Shown here: positions 29,662-42,541 of the stretch, one piece after another | Numbering within the stretch: the first letter of the stretch is position 1 | How the letters are laid out: each line of letters begins with the position of its first letter | Assembly (NCBI RefSeq): GCF_030577135.1 | Contig: NZ_JAUIRR010000001.1 | Span: 599,561 to 663,560 of the forward strand | Origin: Sulfurimonas sp. hsl 1-7 | GTDB lineage: Bacteria > Campylobacterota > Campylobacteria > Campylobacterales > Sulfurimonadaceae | DNA length: 64,000 nt | Reading direction: 5' to 3' | Made by a program: the position numbers and the translations under genes | Notes under the pieces: generated by a model | What the model saw: only the letters and a program-made list of their open reading frames with translations | Told to the model about the DNA's origin: nothing | Database searches by the model: none

Positions 29662-30003
29662 TTATTCCATTGTTAAACTCATCAAATACATCTCTTCACC
29701 GTCTATCACTTCTACATTTATAGATTCGCACTCAGGGCAACAATAATGATTTTTTTCTAAGCTGTTTTCTTCACCGCATTCATGACACCGCACTACAACA
29801 GGTTGTATCTGTATGATAAATTCAGCCTCTTCGCATATAGTTTTCTCTTTAAAACTATTAAATGCAGTTTCAAACAGATGGATTTCAATACCGCTCATCA
29901 CCCCTATTTTTGTAACTATTTTTGTTACTTTTGAGGCCTTATTCTCTTTTGCAAGATCTTCAACTTGATCCAACAATGCCTGTACTACGCTATATTCATG
30001 CAA
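29662..30003 (-). CDS. hypA: Hydrogenase nickel-insertion protein HypA
   Basis: 113 residues when started at TTG 30003, which gives the obligatory MHEYS N terminus with Ni ligand His2. An upstream in-frame ATG at 30087 would bury that histidine inside a 28-residue extension and overlap hypE, so it is rejected. AGGA precedes the TTG at good distance. The zinc site is two CxxC pairs (CHECGEEN and CCPECES). Delivers Ni to the large subunit together with HypB. Last gene of the hypBCDEA operon, 19 bases after hypE. Confidence 0.92.
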   Translation of the reverse strand: MHEYSVVQALLDQVEDLAKENKASKVTKIVTKIGVMSGIEIHLFETAFNSFKEKTICEEAEFIIQIQPVVVRCHECGEENSLEKNHYCCPECESINVEVIDGEEMYLMSLTME

Positions 30004-30022
30004 ACTATTTTCCTTTAAACAT

Positions 30023-31021
30023 CTAACATATCCTAGGCAGCAACTCACCTGTGGGCATCTCAAGAAATCTTTTTGTACCGTGTCCACTTTTGAGTATCAC
30101 TTTAGCGGGATACTCCTGTGTTATCTGTGCTATCTCAACAGAGTTTGCAGAGTTTTCAAATCTTCGAAGAACATTGATCGCTTTAGCTGCATCAGCTTTT
30201 GGTATCGCTAAGATGAAAGTCCCCTCATTTGCCAGATTCATAGCCTCAAAACCGAGCATTTCACAAAGACCGTACACCTCTTGCGATACAGGGATCTTCT
30301 CCTCTTGCACCTCTATACAAATATTTGACTGTTTTGCCCACTCATTTAGCACGGCACTTACACCTCCGCGCGTTGCATCACGCATCGCAGTTATGTTTAT
30401 TCCCTCTTTTATAAGCGCTTCAACTTGAACATAAAGAGATGCACAATCGCTTTGCAGATTACTTGAGAGTTCTATCCCCTCACGTGCTGCAAAAATTGTC
30501 GCACCGTGACACCCTATATCGCGAGAGAGTAAAATGACGTCATCTTCAGATATTTTATTTGCACTCACCCCTTTTTGCTCGATCTCACCGATCCCCGTCG
30601 TGTTTATAAAGATTTTATCGACACTCCCTTTGGGAACCACTTTGGTATCGCCGCTTACAATTACGGCATTGTTTATTGCCAACTCTTTTTTCATAGAATC
30701 TACAATCTTCTCAAGCTCTTCAAGAGAAAAACCCTCCTCTATGATCACCGAACAGGTAAGGTATTTCGGTTTTGCACCCATCATTGCCAGATCGTTACAA
30801 GTTCCGCAAATTGCCAGTTTCCCTATATCTCCACCGGGGAAAAAGATCGGAGAAACCGTAAAACTGTCTGTTGAAAACGCTAACTCCCCGTTATGGATCA
30901 CCGCTGCATCTTCACTTTTTTCTAAGATCTCATTGGCAAAGGCTTTGTAAAACACTTTCGAGATCAGCTCGTTATTCTCTTCACCGCCGTTTCCCATAGC
31001 TAAAGTAATTTGTTTGTTCAT
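30023..31021 (-). CDS. hypE: Hydrogenase maturation protein HypE
   Basis: 332 residues, AIR-synthase-like ATPase that dehydrates a carbamoyl thioester to a cyano group. Ends in the essential PRIC with C-terminal Cys. N-terminal glycine-rich GNGGEENNELI and ATP-binding SGDTKVV blocks are intact. It overlaps hypD by 4 bases. Confidence 0.97.
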   Translation of the reverse strand: MNKQITLAMGNGGEENNELISKVFYKAFANEILEKSEDAAVIHNGELAFSTDSFTVSPIFFPGGDIGKLAICGTCNDLAMMGAKPKYLTCSVIIEEGFSLEELEKIVDSMKKELAINNAVIVSGDTKVVPKGSVDKIFINTTGIGEIEQKGVSANKISEDDVILLSRDIGCHGATIFAAREGIELSSNLQSDCASLYVQVEALIKEGINITAMRDATRGGVSAVLNEWAKQSNICIEVQEEKIPVSQEVYGLCEMLGFEAMNLANEGTFILAIPKADAAKAINVLRRFENSANSVEIAQITQEYPAKVILKSGHGTKRFLEMPTGELLPRIC

Positions 31022-32142
31022 AAAAGATTCCCGTATTTATAATAGGCTGCACAAGCACCCTCGCTACTTACCATACAGCTTCCCATAGGTGTACTCGGTT
31101 TGCATGCAGTTCCAAAGATAGAACACTGCGGCGGAGTAGCCTTACCTTTAAGTATATCTCCGCAAATGCAAAGTTTATGATCGTCAATCAGCTCGCTTTT
31201 TAGAAGTTCTTCGTAGAGTACCTCTGCGTTATAAGCACTATACTCATCCCGAAGTTTGAGTCCGCCGTTTGGAATATCTCCCAAACCTCTAAATCTAAAA
31301 TGTGGCGCTTTTTCAAAATAGTTCTCATTTAAGGTTTGTGCTTTTAAGTTCCCCTCTGTATTTACGGCACGTTTGTACTGCACTTCAAGCTCACATCTTT
31401 TCTGGGCAAACTGTCGTACAATCATAGAGATCGATTCCATTACATCAACAGGCTCAAACCCTCCAACAACTACGGGCTTTTTATACTCACTTGGGAACTT
31501 ATCATAGATCTGACTTCCGCTGATGACACTCACATGACTCGGTCCTAAAAATGCGTCGATCTTACACTCATCATCAGCTAAAAGCAGCTCCATCGCTTCG
31601 GGAACCGTTACATGGTTTATATGAAACAAGATATTTGAGATATTTTGTTTCACGACAACATCTAAAAGTGCCGCGCTCATCGGTGTCGTAGTCTCAAAAC
31701 CGATCGCAAAGAAGATTATTTTTTTCTCGGGATTCTCTTTGGCAATTTTCAGGGTATCGAGCGGCGAATATACAAAACGCACATCAGCACCTTGTGCGCG
31801 TGCATCTTGCAAAGAACCCTTAGAACCCGGGACTTTTATCATATCACCCAAGGTTACAAGGATCACATCCTCTTGCATCGCTAAGATGTAGGCATGGTCT
31901 ATCCGCTCTTTTGGCATGATACAAACAGGGCATCCCGGCCCGTGTAGAAAGTTGATATTCTCAGGCAGTAGTTGTTGCAAACCATACTTCATGATCGTAT
32001 GTGTATGACCGCCGCACACCTCCATAATGTTTATGGGAGAAGAGAGCTTTTTCGCCTCTTCTTCGATCAGCTTTGCATACCCTTGAATCACTTCCGGGTC
32101 TCTAAAACCGGTATAGAGGTCTTTGAGCTGTAGTTCACCCAT
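31018..32142 (-). CDS. hypD: Hydrogenase maturation protein HypD
   Basis: 374 residues. Contains MEVCGGHTHTI, HGPGCPVC, GFETTTP and the C-terminal cluster cysteines (CICGDILKG, C-SIFGTAC). It holds a [4Fe-4S] cluster and, with HypC, assembles the Fe(CN)2CO unit. Start and hypC stop share one base. Confidence 0.97.
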   Translation of the reverse strand: MGELQLKDLYTGFRDPEVIQGYAKLIEEEAKKLSSPINIMEVCGGHTHTIMKYGLQQLLPENINFLHGPGCPVCIMPKERIDHAYILAMQEDVILVTLGDMIKVPGSKGSLQDARAQGADVRFVYSPLDTLKIAKENPEKKIIFFAIGFETTTPMSAALLDVVVKQNISNILFHINHVTVPEAMELLLADDECKIDAFLGPSHVSVISGSQIYDKFPSEYKKPVVVGGFEPVDVMESISMIVRQFAQKRCELEVQYKRAVNTEGNLKAQTLNENYFEKAPHFRFRGLGDIPNGGLKLRDEYSAYNAEVLYEELLKSELIDDHKLCICGDILKGKATPPQCSIFGTACKPSTPMGSCMVSSEGACAAYYKYGNLL

Positions 32143-32432
32143 TATTTGCCTCTATTTGGACAATTATCATCCTCTTCGACCAAGTTTTGCCGCTCTTGCT
32201 CATCCATCTTCTCAACTAATTCGCTGTATACTTTTAAAGACTCCAAAGCATCTGCTTCATCTAGCTTGTTCATAATAAAACCGATGTGTAAAAGTACATA
32301 ATCCCCTATTTTTACATCATCCTCTTCCATCAGATCCAAACCTGCTTCACGAGTAATACCCATAGTATCTACCGTTGCTACGTTTCTCTCTTTATCTATC
32401 TTTACAACTTTGCTTGGAATTGAAAGGCACAT
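32142..32432 (-). CDS. hypC: Hydrogenase maturation chaperone HypC
   Basis: 96 residues beginning MCLSIPSKVV; Cys2 is the Fe-binding residue. C terminus is acidic and extends to ~15 residues beyond the usual 80, ending NCPNRGK. Starts 1 base after hypB. Acts as a shuttle between HypD and the large-subunit precursor. Confidence 0.96.
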   Translation of the reverse strand: MCLSIPSKVVKIDKERNVATVDTMGITREAGLDLMEEDDVKIGDYVLLHIGFIMNKLDEADALESLKVYSELVEKMDEQERQNLVEEDDNCPNRGK

Positions 32433-32433
32433 C

Positions 32434-33234
32434 CTAAGCTCTCATCTTGCGTTTAAATTCGATCCACTCTATAACTCTTTGGATCGAGGCAGGCTCTTTT
32501 ACGCTTACCTCTAAGATGTCAACACCCGGTTTGATTTTTCGTGCCTCTTTTTTTTCATGTTCGAGGTCATAATCAAAGTGCTCTATTAAGTCCATCTTCG
32601 TTATTAAGATCAGATCAGCCTGTCGAAACATTACGGGGTATTTTTCTATCTTGTCACTTCCCTCGGGAACTGAAACCAGAACAATGTTTAAATGGGTTCC
32701 GACATCATACGAAGCGGGACACACAAGATTGCCCACATTTTCTACAAAACACAGATCAATCTCATCAAGCGGCATCGCATGCAATCCCTTGTGAACCATA
32801 AAGGCATCCAAATGGCACGCTGAGCCTGTTTGTATCTGATAGGCAGGGATTCCTTTTGCTTTAATTCTATCAGCATCACGCGAAGTCTCCAAATCCCCCT
32901 CGATAACACCAAATTTAAACTCTGCCAAATCTGCCATAGCTTCAAGCAGTGCAGTTTTTCCGCTTCCCGGTGAGCTCATAAGGTTAATACTCAGTACATT
33001 GTGGTTATCAAAGTGGCTGCGGTTATGCGCTGCTTCATGGTTGTTTTTATCTAAAATCTTTGTAATGACACTTATAGTTTTCGCATCGTTTAACTGCGGG
33101 TTATGGTGCAGTGTTTCATGCGCAGCCTGATGCTCGTGTGAGTGATCATGAGTATGTTCATGATGATGGTGATGATGCTCGTGCCCATCTCCTAAAGTTG
33201 TTCCTGTTATACTACATCCGCAATCTGCACACAT
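32434..33234 (-). CDS. hypB: Hydrogenase nickel-incorporation GTPase HypB, His-rich
   Basis: 266 residues. The N terminus has the high-affinity nickel motif MCADCGC (Cys2, 5, 7) and then a His-rich stretch (about residues 18-45, with six consecutive His) for Ni storage. The G domain has SSPGSGKTALL, ENVGNLVCP and TKMDL. GTP hydrolysis drives Ni transfer. Downstream of the nickel permease gene. Confidence 0.97.
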   Translation of the reverse strand: MCADCGCSITGTTLGDGHEHHHHHHEHTHDHSHEHQAAHETLHHNPQLNDAKTISVITKILDKNNHEAAHNRSHFDNHNVLSINLMSSPGSGKTALLEAMADLAEFKFGVIEGDLETSRDADRIKAKGIPAYQIQTGSACHLDAFMVHKGLHAMPLDEIDLCFVENVGNLVCPASYDVGTHLNIVLVSVPEGSDKIEKYPVMFRQADLILITKMDLIEHFDYDLEHEKKEARKIKPGVDILEVSVKEPASIQRVIEWIEFKRKMRA

Positions 33235-33256
33235 ATATTTTAATCCCTTTAATTAT

Positions 33257-33898
33257 TTATGCCAAAAGCATGTTTGATCCGACTGCTACGGAAACGATTC
33301 CCGCAGCTGCAAACACTCTTCTTACATTTCTCTGATTTGTTAAAAACTCTTTATTGATATATAAAATCACTACCCCGAAGCTTAGAAAAACAACACTTAC
33401 ACCAAATACAAAAGCAAGTACCATAGAAAAATCTACCACCTGATTTTCCAAAACGCCCAGAGTGACAAGCATTCCGCGAACTCCGCCTATCCCCATAAGT
33501 GCGCCCATAGTCCATGCCGATGTCGATGCATAGGAACTGTTATGGGAATGCTCTTTTCCAAAATAGATGTGCATATGCTCTTTGTCATCATGGATGTGTT
33601 TGTTGAGATGTATTTTGTTTGATGCAACCATATACAAAAGATATACACCCATAGCGATAATTACGCTTGAAGCTATTATATCTCCGTACATAGTAACATT
33701 TTCGGGTAAATTATAGCTCTGTAAAATTTTTGCAAATAGAAAAAGTGTGATCCCGTGACCAAAAGCAAACATGATCGTAATCATCATCGTTTTTTTGATG
33801 GACTTTCCTATGGAAAAATCGGCTATAGCAGTTAAATGATCAGCTCCAAATGCATGTAAGATTCCATACCAGAGCATGAGAAAATAAGCCGTTTCCAT
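33257..33898 (-). CDS. Nickel permease (NiCoT/UreH-like)
   Basis: 213 residues with about six membrane segments. HAFGADHLTAI is the HX4DH signature of Ni/Co transporters, and GHGITLF the second conserved segment. A cytoplasmic/loop segment is His-rich (HIHDDKEHMHI and KEHSH). Its position in front of hypB implies Ni2+ supply for the hydrogenase. Substrate inferred from motif and neighbourhood. Confidence 0.85.
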   Translation of the reverse strand: METAYFLMLWYGILHAFGADHLTAIADFSIGKSIKKTMMITIMFAFGHGITLFLFAKILQSYNLPENVTMYGDIIASSVIIAMGVYLLYMVASNKIHLNKHIHDDKEHMHIYFGKEHSHNSSYASTSAWTMGALMGIGGVRGMLVTLGVLENQVVDFSMVLAFVFGVSVVFLSFGVVILYINKEFLTNQRNVRRVFAAAGIVSVAVGSNMLLA

Positions 33899-34038: not shown

Positions 34039-34578
34039 GTGAAAGAGTTAGTAGTTTTAGGTGTCGGAAATATCTTACAGCATGATGACGCTATAGCAGT
34101 ATATGCCTCACAGTATATAAGCGACAACTACACTTTTTCACCCGACATAGATATTATAAACGGCGGAGTTGAGGGGATAAACCTTCTCAACTTTTTTATG
34201 GAGTACAAATACATCCTCATTCTTGATGCTATAGATATAGAAGATGAAGCGGGAGCTATTTACCATATCCCCTCAGAGGAGCTTACAGGTTTTGGAGTGA
34301 ATTCCGGAAGTGCGCACGACATTGGAGTACTTCAATGCTTTGAGCTTTTGGAACTGATGGGGAAAAAGGCACCAAAGTCTAGTGTTCTTGGGATCGTACC
34401 ACATAAAATAGATACCCATATAGGTCTAAGCGAAACACTCCACGAAAAATTTGAGATCTACATACAAACACTTCTAAACATTCTTAGCGATCTCAATATA
34501 ACGGCTACAAAAAATGATGCTGAAGTATTTCTTGATGATGTGATCGAGAAGTTTAATAACCCTAGAGGGCTGTATTAG
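34039..34578 (+). CDS. Hydrogenase maturation endopeptidase (HyaD/HybD family)
   Basis: 179 residues, GTG start with AAAGGGAAG upstream. All three predicted metal ligands are present: Asp16 (or 17) in GVGNILQHDDA, Asp63 in ILDAID and His93 in SAHDIG, numbers close to E. coli HybD (16, 62, 93). It cleaves the C-terminal tail of a hydrogenase large subunit after Ni insertion. Divergent from the hyp operon, across a 140-base spacer. A second, substituted paralogue is at 39775-40308. Confidence 0.9.
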   Translation: MKELVVLGVGNILQHDDAIAVYASQYISDNYTFSPDIDIINGGVEGINLLNFFMEYKYILILDAIDIEDEAGAIYHIPSEELTGFGVNSGSAHDIGVLQCFELLELMGKKAPKSSVLGIVPHKIDTHIGLSETLHEKFEIYIQTLLNILSDLNITATKNDAEVFLDDVIEKFNNPRGLY

Positions 34579-34679: not shown

Positions 34680-35642
34680 ATGAGTAGAATTTTTGAAGAC
34701 AATGAAATAGAAGGTAAAACTGGAACAGAACTCCAACAAGCTACACAGCAAATCAAACAAAGATTTGATCAAAAGAGAGGTTATTATCATAACTTACGCA
34801 ATCAACAAACTTTTTTTGAAAACTGGAATGAACTCAACCAACGTATAATTGATTTTGACACTAAATACTTCACTCCATGGAACCAACAATGGGCTACTAT
34901 TCAAAGAACAAACAATCCCCAAAGCATTTTAACTTCTTTTCAAAATGCTTTGGTCTTTTTTAACGACATGGATGAATTTATACTCAGCATATCAAATACC
35001 AATCAGAACAGTGAAGAGATTGAAAGTTTAAAAACAGAAATACTACAACATGTTGAAAGAGATATTTTAGATTTGAAAGCAAATATTTCTTCCGAAATAG
35101 AAAGAGGCATCAATAATTTGGTTGGTTTAAAAGCTGAATTAGGATTACAAAAAAACTTTAAAGATAATATTGATACAGAATTAAAAACCTCTATGAAATT
35201 TCGCTTTCGTTTTATGTCAGGATTTATGATAACATTATTTTTATTACCAATGCTTGTTTTATCTACATATTATTTTGATATTTTTAAAAATATTAATACA
35301 ACTGAACTATATGTTTTAAGGATCGGTATAACTATTTCACTAGCATTTTTTTCTTATTTCTTGTATTCTCAATATAAATTATATCAAATAATTTGCTTAC
35401 GTTACTCACACTTACAAGGTTTTTTAGGTGGTGGAGCAACATTTATTGGACAAATCATTGGATCAGAAAATTCAGAATTAAAACAAGATATTAATAAAAA
35501 ACTTGCCGAATTATTTATGGAATTAGAACATGTTTTTGGAGTTGCTAAAAAAAGTTCACATCCAGCTGAAATCTCTATTGAAAAAACAGGTGAACTTCTT
35601 GATAAGATTGCAAACATAACAAATGCATCTCCAAAAGCTTAA
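34680..35642 (+). CDS. Membrane-associated coiled-coil protein, unrecognised
   Basis: 320 residues. Residues 1-165 are polar, Gln/Asn-rich and helical with coiled-coil character; two membrane segments follow (about 181-200 and 215-236); the last 80 residues are helical again. A short cytosolic hairpin-like topology is likely. No family recognised. It is more AT-rich than its neighbours and separates the maturation protease from the hydrogenase structural genes, meeting hupL tail to tail with a 4-base overlap. That makes it a probable insertion unrelated to the hydrogenase. Confidence 0.7.
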   Translation: MSRIFEDNEIEGKTGTELQQATQQIKQRFDQKRGYYHNLRNQQTFFENWNELNQRIIDFDTKYFTPWNQQWATIQRTNNPQSILTSFQNALVFFNDMDEFILSISNTNQNSEEIESLKTEILQHVERDILDLKANISSEIERGINNLVGLKAELGLQKNFKDNIDTELKTSMKFRFRFMSGFMITLFLLPMLVLSTYYFDIFKNINTTELYVLRIGITISLAFFSYFLYSQYKLYQIICLRYSHLQGFLGGGATFIGQIIGSENSELKQDINKKLAELFMELEHVFGVAKKSSHPAEISIEKTGELLDKIANITNASPKA

Positions 35643-37321
35643 AAAGCTACATTAGTAGTTTTATACTTTGCAAGTTCTTTCCCTTTTGCATCTATAACAT
35701 GCACCGCACATGCCAAACATGGATCAAAAGAGTGGATAACCCGCAATACTTCTAACGGCTTTTCTCTATCTTCTATCTTTAAACCAATTAAGCCCTCTTC
35801 GTATGCACCTCTGAGTCCGTCAAAGTTTTTCGGTGTGGCATTCCAAGTTGTCGGAGCTATTACCGAATAGTTTTGTATCTTTGCATCTTTTATGTTGATA
35901 AAGTGAGAAAGCATCCCTCTTGGCACTTCCAAAAATGCCCTTCCCTGCGTTTGTGTCTCTAAAGCTTCAAAACTGTACTTTGTCCATGTATCGGTATCGT
36001 AGTATTTTATATTTTGCAGCAACTCTGAAGCAATCTTGAAAATATACTCACATACATAAATGCTCTCTATTGCGCGGGCTGCATTTCTCCCTACAGATGT
36101 ACAAATATCGATGAGTTCCAAATTGGTCTCTTTTAAGAACTCATCTACAAATGAAGTGATGAGAGGATTCTTTTTAGAATAGCTTATGAGCAGTCGTGCG
36201 AGCGGTCCCGTCTCCATCGGCTGTTTATCGTAACGCGGGGCTTTGATCCATGAGTACTTGTCATCATTTTTTGCTGTTTTTAAAGAGCCGTCACTGTTTA
36301 GATCGGTATATTTTACTTCCTGCTCGGGCGTACTACCGTCATACCAAGATCGATCAACCTCTTCGGTAATTTTTTCAGGATCAAAATCTTGCACATTCTC
36401 AAAATCGTGCTTGTAGATTACACCGTCGCTAAAGAGTTTTCTCTCCCCTTCAAAGCTGTAACCGCCCGATGACATGTAGTTCCCATTAGCTCTTCCGATG
36501 CCCGCTTTTATCTCATCACGATACACCATCGCCAAGAGTTTTGCATCCGGAAGGTATGCCCGCTGGATAAACTCCTGTGCCTCTTTCATAATGAAAAGAT
36601 AGTCATTTACCCTTTGAGGATTCAACATATCTGCTACACTTGTCACTCCGCCAACTACCAGAGTTTGGGGATGGGGAGTTTTTGCACCGAAAATCGCTAC
36701 CGCTTTACTCACCTTTGTTTGAAACTTGAGCGCTTCGAGATAGTGAGAAATAAGCAGCAGGTTTTGCTCAGGAGAGAGTTTATATGTTTTATGCCCCCAG
36801 TAGCCGTTGGCAAATGGGCCGAGCTTTCCACTTTTTACAAAAGTATCCAGTTTTTTCAATGTCTCTTCATAGTGAGAATGGGAGTTTCTAAAAGGGTTTT
36901 CATGGTACTTGTGTGCCTCTTTGGATGTCATTTTCGGATCAGCATTTAGGGCACTGGTTACATCCACATAGTCTAAAGAGTGCAGATGATAAAAATGAAC
37001 CACATGATCCTGAATAAACAGTGCCATAGCCATAAGATCACGAATGATCTCGGCATTTTTAGGAATCTTAAGAGAGTATGCATCTTCAACACACGTTATA
37101 GCTCCACGAAAATGGGAGTTTGTACACACGCCGCAAATACGCCCCGCCATCAATCCCGCATCTCTTGGATCGCGACCTTGTAGTATAGTCTCTATTCCTC
37201 GAAACAGCTGTCCGCTTGCCCAGGCATCTTGAACGACATTGTTCTCATCCACCTCAACCTCTACACGCAGATGTCCCTCTATTCTCGTGATTGGATCGAT
37301 AACAATTTTTTTAAGACTCAT
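35639..37321 (-). CDS. hupL: [NiFe]-hydrogenase large subunit
   Basis: 560 residues. The N-terminal Ni motif RICGVCTNSH (Cys63, Cys66) and the C-terminal DPCLACAVH (Cys535, Cys538) provide the four Ni/Fe-binding cysteines; cleavage after His541 would remove a 19-residue tail. It lacks a signal peptide, as expected since the small subunit has none either. It starts inside the end of the small-subunit fusion gene (11-base overlap). Enzyme class is most like the cytoplasmic group-2-type uptake hydrogenases, judged by partner and motifs; group must be confirmed by phylogeny. Confidence 0.95.
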   Translation of the reverse strand: MSLKKIVIDPITRIEGHLRVEVEVDENNVVQDAWASGQLFRGIETILQGRDPRDAGLMAGRICGVCTNSHFRGAITCVEDAYSLKIPKNAEIIRDLMAMALFIQDHVVHFYHLHSLDYVDVTSALNADPKMTSKEAHKYHENPFRNSHSHYEETLKKLDTFVKSGKLGPFANGYWGHKTYKLSPEQNLLLISHYLEALKFQTKVSKAVAIFGAKTPHPQTLVVGGVTSVADMLNPQRVNDYLFIMKEAQEFIQRAYLPDAKLLAMVYRDEIKAGIGRANGNYMSSGGYSFEGERKLFSDGVIYKHDFENVQDFDPEKITEEVDRSWYDGSTPEQEVKYTDLNSDGSLKTAKNDDKYSWIKAPRYDKQPMETGPLARLLISYSKKNPLITSFVDEFLKETNLELIDICTSVGRNAARAIESIYVCEYIFKIASELLQNIKYYDTDTWTKYSFEALETQTQGRAFLEVPRGMLSHFINIKDAKIQNYSVIAPTTWNATPKNFDGLRGAYEEGLIGLKIEDREKPLEVLRVIHSFDPCLACAVHVIDAKGKELAKYKTTNVAF

Positions 37322-39774: not shown

Positions 39775-40308
39775 TCAAGAATTAAAGTAACTCGCTACTA
39801 TCTCATCCAATTCTATAACATTTTCTCTTTGCTTGGCTTCAATTCCCAACAATTTCATTTGAGATAGCACACTTTGAATATATATTTGCCACTCTTTTCT
39901 TAAAACGTCACTCACTCCAACCTCAACACTCATAATGTCATTTGGGACAATACTTATAACTGTTGTCTTAGCTACAGTTCCGGACAAAGAACATACTTGC
40001 AACATCTCGGCAATTTCAACTTCGCTCGCTGTCTTTTTGACTATGTCACCCTCTAAGAACTGCTCTGTATTTTTTATGATTATCTCGCCTGCATCTCTGT
40101 TTTGCTCCGAAGAGGTATTGACAATGAGGAGTTTATCATACGCTTGTAACAGCTCCATAAGTTTTAGTCCTAAAGTCCCGCCCTCTATTATCTCAAAGGG
40201 GATAGAAAAATCGTAGTTCTCTTTTATATAACGCACGGCATAAACGCCTATACCTTCATCTTTAAAAAGAACGTTTCCCGAACCCACCAGTGCTATGTTT
40301 TTTCCCAT
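39775..40308 (-). CDS. Hydrogenase-maturation-protease paralogue lacking two metal ligands
   Basis: 177 residues that align throughout with the protease at 34039 (GSGNVLFKDEGIGVYAVRYIKENY, GG..GLKLMELL, ISIVP). The first acidic ligand position is kept (Asp17/Glu18), but the position of Asp63 is Asn64 (LLIVNTSS) and that of His93 is Ser95 (TASEVE). Between hypF (1-base gap) and the fusion gene, so made with this hydrogenase. Either it uses other residues to process HupL or it acts as a non-catalytic chaperone. Family is clear; activity is doubtful. Confidence 0.8.
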   Translation of the reverse strand: MGKNIALVGSGNVLFKDEGIGVYAVRYIKENYDFSIPFEIIEGGTLGLKLMELLQAYDKLLIVNTSSEQNRDAGEIIIKNTEQFLEGDIVKKTASEVEIAEMLQVCSLSGTVAKTTVISIVPNDIMSVEVGVSDVLRKEWQIYIQSVLSQMKLLGIEAKQRENVIELDEIVASYFNS

Positions 40309-40309
40309 C

Positions 40310-42541
40310 TTATTTCTCTTTTTTCATATGCAGTGCATAGTAGGCTTGACCAAGAGATATACCACCGTCATTGATCGCAGTTTTACTCTGGAAATAGTAA
40401 TCTATACCATTCTTTTCAAAAGCTGCAATAGTTTTTTCAAGCAAGGTTTTGTTTTGAAATACACCGCCGCTCAAAATCACAGGCAGTTCGGGATGTTTAA
40501 GTGCGAGCTCAACCATTATATTTTTGAGTGTATTTATAAATTTTGAGGCGATCAATGCTTTTTCTTTTTCGTTTAATATCTCTACTATCATCTCTTTAAA
40601 CTCTATTATCTCATTGTTGATTCTATAGGGATAACTTGCATCACTTTTATGCTCTTGTGCACACTTCTCAACGATCAGCCCGCTTTCCCCCTCATAACTT
40701 AGGTTATTTAGGTTACCGCCAAAAGCATACACGGCATCAAACAATCTGCCGATCGAACTGCTCTTTGGAGAGTTTAGCTGTTTTGTGTACATGAGGTGGT
40801 AATTATCTATCTCTTCTTTGGAAAAGGAGTTTACTAGCTCATGCTCCATCTCTAAGATCTCCTCTTTAGTAAAAGATTCAAACAACAATGAAAGTGCTAC
40901 ACGTCGAGGTTCTTTTACAGCCTTTTCTCCCCCTAAAAGAGAGAACTGTTGAAGATGATACAATCGTTTATACTCACTTGAACTCACACGTAAAACTTCA
41001 CCGCCCCATAAAGTGGCATCATCTCCGTAACCAGTACCGTCAAAACAAAATGCTAAAGCCTCATCTTCCAAGTTATACTCTGCCATACACGCCAGTGCAT
41101 GTGCATAGTGGTGTTGCACTTCCAAAAGCTCTGCATCTTTATGCTCAGCAATGTAGCTTTTTGCCCATTTACTCGTTTCATAGTGTGGATGTTTATCGCA
41201 TACAATGATGTCGGGTTCAAAATTGTACAGCCGTTTAAAAGTATCAAGTGTGCGTAAGAAATACTCAAAGGCTTCGAGTGAATTTAGGTCGCCTATGTGG
41301 GGAGAGAGGATCATATGGTTTTCAAATGCCAAAGTGATGGTACTTTTTTGATGCGCACCGAGAGCGAGTATCTTTTTAGTAGATGTGTGCTTTTGATGAA
41401 AACTTTGTGGTGTAAATCCGCGGGCATTTCTTAAAACGATCTGCTTCTCTGCAACACTGCAAACCACACTGTCATCACAGGCATTAACTATCTCTCTATT
41501 ATGTGAGAGAGTGTGTTCAAGAAACGGAAGCTTTTTATGCAACTCCTCTTCATCGGTAATGATAGGCTCATCACCCAAGTTTGCACTTGTTGCCACTATA
41601 GGATGCTCAAGCTTTTCTAAGATCAGCTCATGCAGAGGGGTATAAGGTAAAAACACACCTACTCTGTCAATATTTGGTGCTATGAGAGAGGATAAAAAGC
41701 TGTTCTCTTTTTTTCTCACTATAACTATGGGACGCTCTTTTGAGAGGATCAGCTCCTCATCTTTCTCGCTCAAGTAAGCTGCCTTTTTAATTTCTTCAAT
41801 ATCTTTAAACATCACCGCAAAAGGTTTCGTCGGACGGTTTTTATGTTTTCTTAGCTCCTGCACCGCTTGATCGTTTGTGGCATCACACACTATATGAAAC
41901 CCGCCCAACCCTTTGAGCGCCAAGATTTTGCCATCGTTAATATAACCGGCAAACTCCTCTATGGAAAAGTTCAGTGTAGGTCCACAATCAAAACACGAGC
42001 TTGGCTGTGCATGAAAACGGCGATCTGTCGGCTCGCTATACTCTTTTTGACACTCCTCGCACATCTCAAACTCTTGCATTGAGGTGTTTTTTCTATCATA
42101 GGGCAGCTCTTTAACTATGCTGTATCTCGGTCCACAGTTTGTACAGTTGATAAAAGGGTATTTGTAACGTCTGTTTGCTGGGTCGTTCATCTCATCTCTG
42201 CAATCTTGGCACATTGAGATATCTGGCGAGAGCATTGTAGTGACATCGGTATTATTTGAGCGAAGAATTGAAAACTCTTGCGTGTTTTGGAGTTCAAGTG
42301 TTTGTAGCTCGATCCTGTCTATGCGAGCCAATGGCGGGTGTTTCTCTTTTAGCTCTTCTAAAAAACTCTCTATAGAGCTATTTAGCCCTTCAACCTCTAT
42401 AACTACACCCTCGCCGCTGTTTAATACATATCCTGACAATGAGTGCTTAAGTGAGAGCTGATATACAAACGGGCGAAATCCGACACCTTGTACCACCCCT
42501 GCTATATCCAGTCTTAATCGTTTTTGAGAGTTCTTTTTCAT
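40310..42541 (-). CDS. hypF: Carbamoyltransferase HypF
   Basis: 743 residues, full length. Order: acylphosphatase domain (GVVQGVGFRPFVYQL), two zinc fingers (CQDCRDEM...CTNCGPRYS and CEECQKEY...CFDCGPTL), YrdC-like domain (LKGLGGFH, KNRPTKPFAVM), and Kae1-like domain (HHYAHALACMAE, SGGVFQN). Makes the carbamoyl group for HypE, i.e. the CN ligands. It heads the operon hypF-protease paralogue-fusion-hupL, apart from hypBCDEA. Confidence 0.96.
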   Translation of the reverse strand: MKKNSQKRLRLDIAGVVQGVGFRPFVYQLSLKHSLSGYVLNSGEGVVIEVEGLNSSIESFLEELKEKHPPLARIDRIELQTLELQNTQEFSILRSNNTDVTTMLSPDISMCQDCRDEMNDPANRRYKYPFINCTNCGPRYSIVKELPYDRKNTSMQEFEMCEECQKEYSEPTDRRFHAQPSSCFDCGPTLNFSIEEFAGYINDGKILALKGLGGFHIVCDATNDQAVQELRKHKNRPTKPFAVMFKDIEEIKKAAYLSEKDEELILSKERPIVIVRKKENSFLSSLIAPNIDRVGVFLPYTPLHELILEKLEHPIVATSANLGDEPIITDEEELHKKLPFLEHTLSHNREIVNACDDSVVCSVAEKQIVLRNARGFTPQSFHQKHTSTKKILALGAHQKSTITLAFENHMILSPHIGDLNSLEAFEYFLRTLDTFKRLYNFEPDIIVCDKHPHYETSKWAKSYIAEHKDAELLEVQHHYAHALACMAEYNLEDEALAFCFDGTGYGDDATLWGGEVLRVSSSEYKRLYHLQQFSLLGGEKAVKEPRRVALSLLFESFTKEEILEMEHELVNSFSKEEIDNYHLMYTKQLNSPKSSSIGRLFDAVYAFGGNLNNLSYEGESGLIVEKCAQEHKSDASYPYRINNEIIEFKEMIVEILNEKEKALIASKFINTLKNIMVELALKHPELPVILSGGVFQNKTLLEKTIAAFEKNGIDYYFQSKTAINDGGISLGQAYYALHMKKEK

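Follow-up and report, generated by a model that had tools for sequence, protein, structure and literature searches.

Hydrogenase maturation proteases are described as docking on the large subunit of the enzyme, from work on HupW/HoxW and on HydD with HydB (PMC2670836; PMC5299533). The D(G/C/F)GT region has been proposed for substrate recognition (PMC2670836), and recognition of the precursor's nickel is ascribed to the metal site (PMC5299533; PMC12134894). In Salmonella, HyaD and HydD are found in stable complexes with the large subunit, and the protease–large-subunit complex is undetectable in a strain unable to make the metal cofactor (PMC5299533). Such stable complexes make binding without cutting plausible for a dead protease. 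However, these proteases are active, the Salmonella complex is cofactor-dependent, and the available portions of the papers, on which these statements draw, describe no dead paralogue. Dedicated non-catalytic assembly factors are represented by the chaperones HoxL/HoxV and HupF/HupK (available portion of PMC12134894), which resemble the role proposed below but belong to other families, whereas the protein considered here descends from a protease itself. No description of a dead HybD-family paralogue was found in the literature searched, a search with subscription papers mostly outside its scope, and the word "maturation" does not occur in the available portions of three Sulfurimonas papers (PMC4584964, PMC7952632 and PMC10066037).

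Two HybD-family proteins in one hydrogenase locus

The window is the whole stretch of 64,000 nucleotides analysed here, from the genome of Sulfurimonas sp. hsl 1-7 (2.28 Mb in 15 contigs, 99.99% complete). A profile search of this genome returned two PF01750 genes, one PF00374 gene and one PF00346 gene. By length and score the lone PF00346 gene encodes a complex I subunit, and an overlooked group 4 hydrogenase was rejected on these grounds; the genome therefore has one NiFe hydrogenase. The features of its locus are collected in Table 1. The large subunit, with its DPCLACAVH motif and uncut extension, must consequently be cut. All large-subunit C-termini scoring above 200 bits and carrying the DPCxxCxxH motif retain 14–25 further residues, and loss of the extension, which would make proteases needless, was rejected.

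Table 1. Hydrogenase, hyp and protease features of the window
Feature	Position	Strand	Remark
hypA, hypE, hypD, hypC, hypB and a gene for a 213-aa protein	29662..33898	minus	Names of the hyp genes follow the annotated S. paralvinellae locus, to which they are similar
Intact partner protease, 179 aa	34039..34578	plus	GTG start; Asp17/Asp63/His93; presumed cutter
NiFe hydrogenase large subunit (hupL)	35639..37321	minus	Sole PF00374 gene found in the genome
Large-subunit C-terminal extension	35642..35698	minus	19 aa past DPCLACAVH; peptide predicted to be removed
Fused flavoprotein-BFD-hydrogenase small subunit (hupS), 808 aa	37311..39737	minus	Flavin-dependent pyridine nucleotide oxidoreductase and BFD [2Fe-2S] domain, then hydrogenase small subunit
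Pseudo-protease gene, 177 aa	39775..40308	minus	HydD descendant with HybD fold
Ser95 codon (AGC)	40024..40026	minus	HybD His93 equivalent; ligand lost
Asn64 codon (AAT)	40117..40119	minus	HybD Asp62 equivalent; ligand lost
EGGT stretch of the pseudo-protease	40174..40185	minus	D(G/C/F)GT region equivalent
Glu18 codon (GAA)	40255..40257	minus	HybD Glu16 equivalent; sole metal ligand kept
hypF	40310..42541	minus	Directly upstream of the pseudo-protease gene

The pseudo-protease reading frame begins 1 nt past the hypF stop codon and lies 37 nt before the fused hupS gene, a spacing that fits a single transcript for the three genes; read on the plus strand, the same interval has many stops. A 320-aa protein encoded between the partner gene and hupL (34680–35642) has no Pfam or NCBIfam match and no counterpart in the sister locus L046. 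The 213-aa protein of the hyp region is hypothetical in the S. paralvinellae annotation; our guess is a transporter.

The pseudo-protease scores 44.7 bits against Pfam HycI PF01750 (cut-off 23) and 83.4 bits against TIGR00072 (cut-off 47.45). Its predicted structure (pLDDT 91.4) has the E. coli hydrogenase 2 maturation protease HybD as best match in the PDB (1cfz, E 6e-16), with the fold shared over nearly the full length (TM 0.89 by target length, rmsd 1.9). Profile matches and a HybD-like fold thus make it a member of the PF01750/TIGR00072 family by descent, although it falls below the cut-off of the narrower TIGR00140 (hupD; 87.5 vs 151.8), a cut-off also out of the partner's reach (105). 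Identity to HybD is 24%. Alignment with HybD bore out the sequence-only reading that Asn64 and Ser95 stand at the last two ligand sites, those of Asp62 and His93, and showed the Glu16 equivalent to be kept. The site residues were the same across separate alignments, and an alignment artefact was rejected. The pseudo-protease thus differs from HybD in having two ligands replaced and in coming with an intact second family member. It lacks the full ligand set of an active hydrogenase maturation endopeptidase (Glu or Asp, Asp, His), and its non-catalytic status is strongly supported.

The partner at 34039 has this set and is the only one of the two family members in the window genome with a full metal site. 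Its model (pLDDT 87.8) likewise has HybD 1cfz as best PDB match. The two paralogues align along their length, as had been noted (53 of 176 residues identical, 30%; E 1e-27). Asp63 and His93 of the partner hold as ligands, but Asp16, proposed as the first, does not: HybD Glu16 aligns with Asp17, and Asp16 aligns with HybD Asp15, a residue that is also conserved.

Distribution and descent of the pseudo-protease

Pseudo-proteases were typed in 85 genomes from four families of Campylobacterales. The family of the window organism was sampled with 200 genomes, 135 of them with a match to P0001 and 24 of these not or only partly typed. Its 67 pseudo-protease genomes comprise the 57 closest orthologues fetched, window included, all of which have lost the Asp and His sites (Glu/Asn/Asn in 55; Glu/Asn/Ser in the window and its sister genome G089), and 10 more distant copies with Glu/Gly/Asn. 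A further 18 genomes belong to three other families, the third represented by one genome (G618), and have Glu or Asp at the first site, Gly or Ser at the second and Asn at the third. Across all typed copies the second site is Asn, Gly or Ser, and the third is Asn except for the Ser of the window and G089. After removal of rows truncated or masked at a site, 83 non-identical pseudo-protease rows read ENN (55), EGN (13), DSN (8), ESN (4), ENS (2) and DGN (1); intact HydD-type rows read EDH (62) or DDH (20), and the partner reads DDH in 68 of 68 non-identical rows. Judged from these rows, local decay in the window lineage is not what accounts for the lost ligands.

Of the 85 genomes, 78 also yielded an intact partner of the 34039 type, and the seven misses are fragmented drafts. 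Within the family it is present in 63 of 67, three times as contig-end fragments (G008, G121, G196), and is missing from drafts of 110 to 140 contigs (G012, G125, G149, G166); outside, it is present in 15 of 18 and missing from drafts of 200 to 480 contigs (G340, G350, G360). Among the 44 family genomes typed with an intact HydD only, one has the partner (G015), a doubtful bin that is 81% complete and 7% contaminated. The partner occurs without a typed pseudo-protease in G015, in G114, whose intermediate copy is masked by N and thus not counted, and in G134 (57% complete). Only two PF01750 genes are present in 11 of 13 near-complete genomes chosen for checking. The pairing of a conserved pseudo-protease with an intact protease is strongly supported. 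The origin of the pseudo-protease looks single, so that the co-occurrence counts are not independent events. A motif scan of 397 genomes was crude and missed variants such as the window's own copy; of eight matches fetched, six had no HybD-family gene.

One alternative is that the pseudo-protease still cuts, using other chemistry at its Glu/Asn/Asn (or Ser) site. No variation was seen in 34 family rows at Glu18, Lys92-Thr93-Ala94 or Glu96-Val97-Glu98-Ile99, which implies some function for the pocket. Yet Asn, Gly and Ser all occur at the second site, the third can be Asn or Ser, and the residues flanking the third are less tightly conserved in other families, which is unlike a catalytic residue; an intact partner is, besides, nearly always at hand. 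We regard this alternative as very improbable, and the different mechanism entertained in the sequence-only reading is not supported.

In a tree of 152 rows from the one family, 66 pseudo-protease rows form a single clade (100/98) nested in HydD-type proteases (98/89), which places them in the HydD subfamily by descent, and 56 partner rows form a separate clade (100/96). A quick tree of 167 rows from three families kept the pseudo-protease clade intact (SH-aLRT 96 over 39 rows) among intact HydD. The cheapest history would have the ligands lost once, around the time the partner joined the locus; the partner may be a HydD duplicate or an incomer. In the 167-row tree the partner clade includes a third, His-less group. 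This further set of HybD-family proteins lacking the His ligand, with Asp, Asn or Thr in its place (L231–L236 and L238–L241, from G137, G153, G177, G197, G117, G181, G152, G034, G180 and G195), is one clade within the 34039-type clade, and no hydrogenase or hyp gene was detected in the few kb fetched around its genes.

The nearest intact relatives of the pseudo-protease are the single-protease Campylobacterota proteases, for which we take HydD to be the name (e.g. Arcobacter, L034, L035, L039). They have a similar gene neighbourhood and share the TLG and KTAxEVE stretches; unlike the pseudo-protease, they keep Glu/Asp/His, and no 34039-type partner was seen beside them. In 82 intact HydD-type rows, 32 columns reach a conservation of at least 93%. 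The 83 pseudo-protease rows have lost four of these (kept in less than 10%): the Asp ligand, the His ligand, a Pro (residue 80 of the window's pseudo-protease) and a Gly (residue 119). These four are retained at 94% or more in 68 partner rows, a count that excludes L242, a partner fragment at a contig end. The partner rows are without eight other HydD columns; of these, six are still present in at least 84% of pseudo-protease rows, including the opening residue of D(G/C/F)GT. That the two sets of lost columns do not overlap carries no significance by itself (chance about 0.30), and the HydD-specific residues may have been absent from the partner lineage all along. According to the available portion of PMC2670836, cleavage by HycI is unaffected by Asp38Asn, and the partner's Asn at the first D(G/C/F)GT residue therefore need not harm it.

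Between the window and G089 the pseudo-protease has a dN/dS of 0.078; the corresponding values are 0.255 (partner), 0.057 (large subunit) and 0.136 (HypF). The window pseudo-protease is under strong purifying selection. Pseudogene decay was rejected on this value and on the lack of internal stops in the 57 copies. The related proposal of a redundant copy being lost in a lineage now without a HydAB hydrogenase could appeal to the stem of the window/G089 pair, the longest seen in the 57-row clade (0.95), and to its odd Ser95. The pseudo-protease ratio lies below that of the intact partner, however, and together with the unbroken reading frames this makes the proposal scarcely credible; we disfavour it.

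The hydrogenases that accompany the pair

Most relatives have the pair within a HydAB-type hydrogenase locus, with no fused hydrogenase in the stretch fetched. The large subunit of these loci is short (often 436 aa) and ends in DVCSVCTTH without an extension, and the loci also carry hypF, hypBCDEA and a roughly 640-aa protein weakly similar to HypF. The gene for this protein stands before hypF in many HydAB loci (L255:9814-11739; e.g. L049, L052, L057) and is annotated as hypothetical in S. paralvinellae; the window has no second HypF-like match. In the window and G089, HydAB is absent and the fused hydrogenase, the only one, lies between both protease genes. The expectation that the pseudo-protease should serve the fused enzyme thus holds for the window lineage but fails in most relatives. 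A pseudo-protease special to the fused hydrogenase was rejected, since most relatives have the pair with HydAB and share the loss of Asp and His.

Seven loci combine a fused hydrogenase with the pseudo-protease (the window, L046, L058, L066, L067, L160 and L163), and in none was a protease of its own seen beside the fused enzyme, L058 being truncated where its contig stops. Other genomes have an intact protease in this place, with Asp/Asp/His or Glu/Asp/His (e.g. L122, L125, L190, L210, L215, L229). G025 is a counter-example: besides the pair it has, at another place, a fused-type hydrogenase accompanied by a protease of its own (L121). In the single-contig genome G016, two full-length large subunits are matched by no PF01750 genes other than the pair, and G010, G027, G036, G044, G051 and G062 each combine two full-length large subunits with two PF01750 genes; it would therefore seem that the pair is not limited to a single enzyme. 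G030 has two large-subunit genes with equal PF00374 scores (C1:248670-250265 and C1:1329783-1331378), which suggests a duplicated hydrogenase locus.

S. paralvinellae (G001) has one full-length PF00374 large subunit. Its hydrogenase and hyp locus with both proteases (L255) is on a 49.8-kb plasmid (NZ_CP041407.1), where the partner gene has a transposase next to it and the hydrogenase genes have a site-specific integrase upstream. Uptake of H2 by this species is reported in the available portion of a review (PMC4584964), but the species is reported, in the available portion of PMC7952632, to have a group IV hydrogenase too, so that the H2 data do not single out one enzyme. A second PF00346 gene is present in its genome.

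Over 25 loci, pseudo-protease distances track those of HydB (r 0.93, partial 0.80) and partner distances those of HypB (r 0.89, partial 0.63); neighbouring genes travel together, and these ties are therefore weak. Between the two proteases the partial correlation was 0.79 with HypD as control, 0.56 with HypD and HypB and 0.33 with HydB (n 40–42), and covariation was gone with HypD, HypB and HydB together (partial r −0.03, n 25).

That linkage could explain the correlation with HydB leaves room for a conserved, non-catalytic pseudo-protease that does not act on the large subunit, and instead regulates the partner or acts on HypF, the small subunit or another Hyp step. Most Sulfurimonadaceae-type loci have its gene directly after hypF, as does the window. 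On the other hand, in the EGN, ESN and DSN lineages the gene does not follow hypF but is flanked by the structural genes of the hydrogenase on one side and the HypF-like gene on the other, and in single-protease loci such as L104 and L183 an intact HydD holds the same position. We consider a target of this kind unlikely.

Proposed roles of the pseudo-protease and its partner

The reading that we think probable is that the conserved HydD-type pseudo-protease is a large-subunit-binding assembly factor working beside the intact cutter at 34039. In it the predicted fold and much of the HydD-specific cleft sequence are preserved, Asp62 and His93 have gone, and without these residues it should neither sense nickel nor cut as proposed for HybD. 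The window genome has one hydrogenase with an uncut extension and exactly this pair of proteases, which makes the intact partner almost certainly the protein that takes off the large-subunit C-terminal peptide. The pseudo-protease would bind the large-subunit precursor and hold or present it, as a dedicated assembly factor. Of the two possibilities first raised for the locus, the one in which the intact protease cuts and the other copy has become an assembly factor is well supported.

That the target is the large subunit is a weakly supported conjecture from the comparisons above, and it is likewise conjecture that the two proteins act as a heterodimer or in turn. By analogy with the cofactor-dependent Salmonella complex, if binding depends on the metal site the dead copy may be unable to bind. 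Somewhat further from the data, and tentative, is the possibility of an obligate two-protein protease, in which the dead HydD twin would provide large-subunit recognition and the intact twin nickel sensing and cutting, the pair having moved to a new substrate once the fused hydrogenase was the sole one left.

In conclusion, the residues missing from the pseudo-protease are those thought to let hydrogenase proteases read nickel in the finished site, and a dead copy kept next to a live one provides a natural case in which binding is set apart from sensing and cutting. There is also a warning for annotation, as the dead copy of S. paralvinellae is recorded as a "hydrogenase maturation protease". 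The clade with dead and live copies belongs to a widespread group of H2-oxidising bacteria, and our analysis suggests that hydrogenase trimming is divided between a cutter and a non-cutting helper in the window bacterium and many of its relatives.
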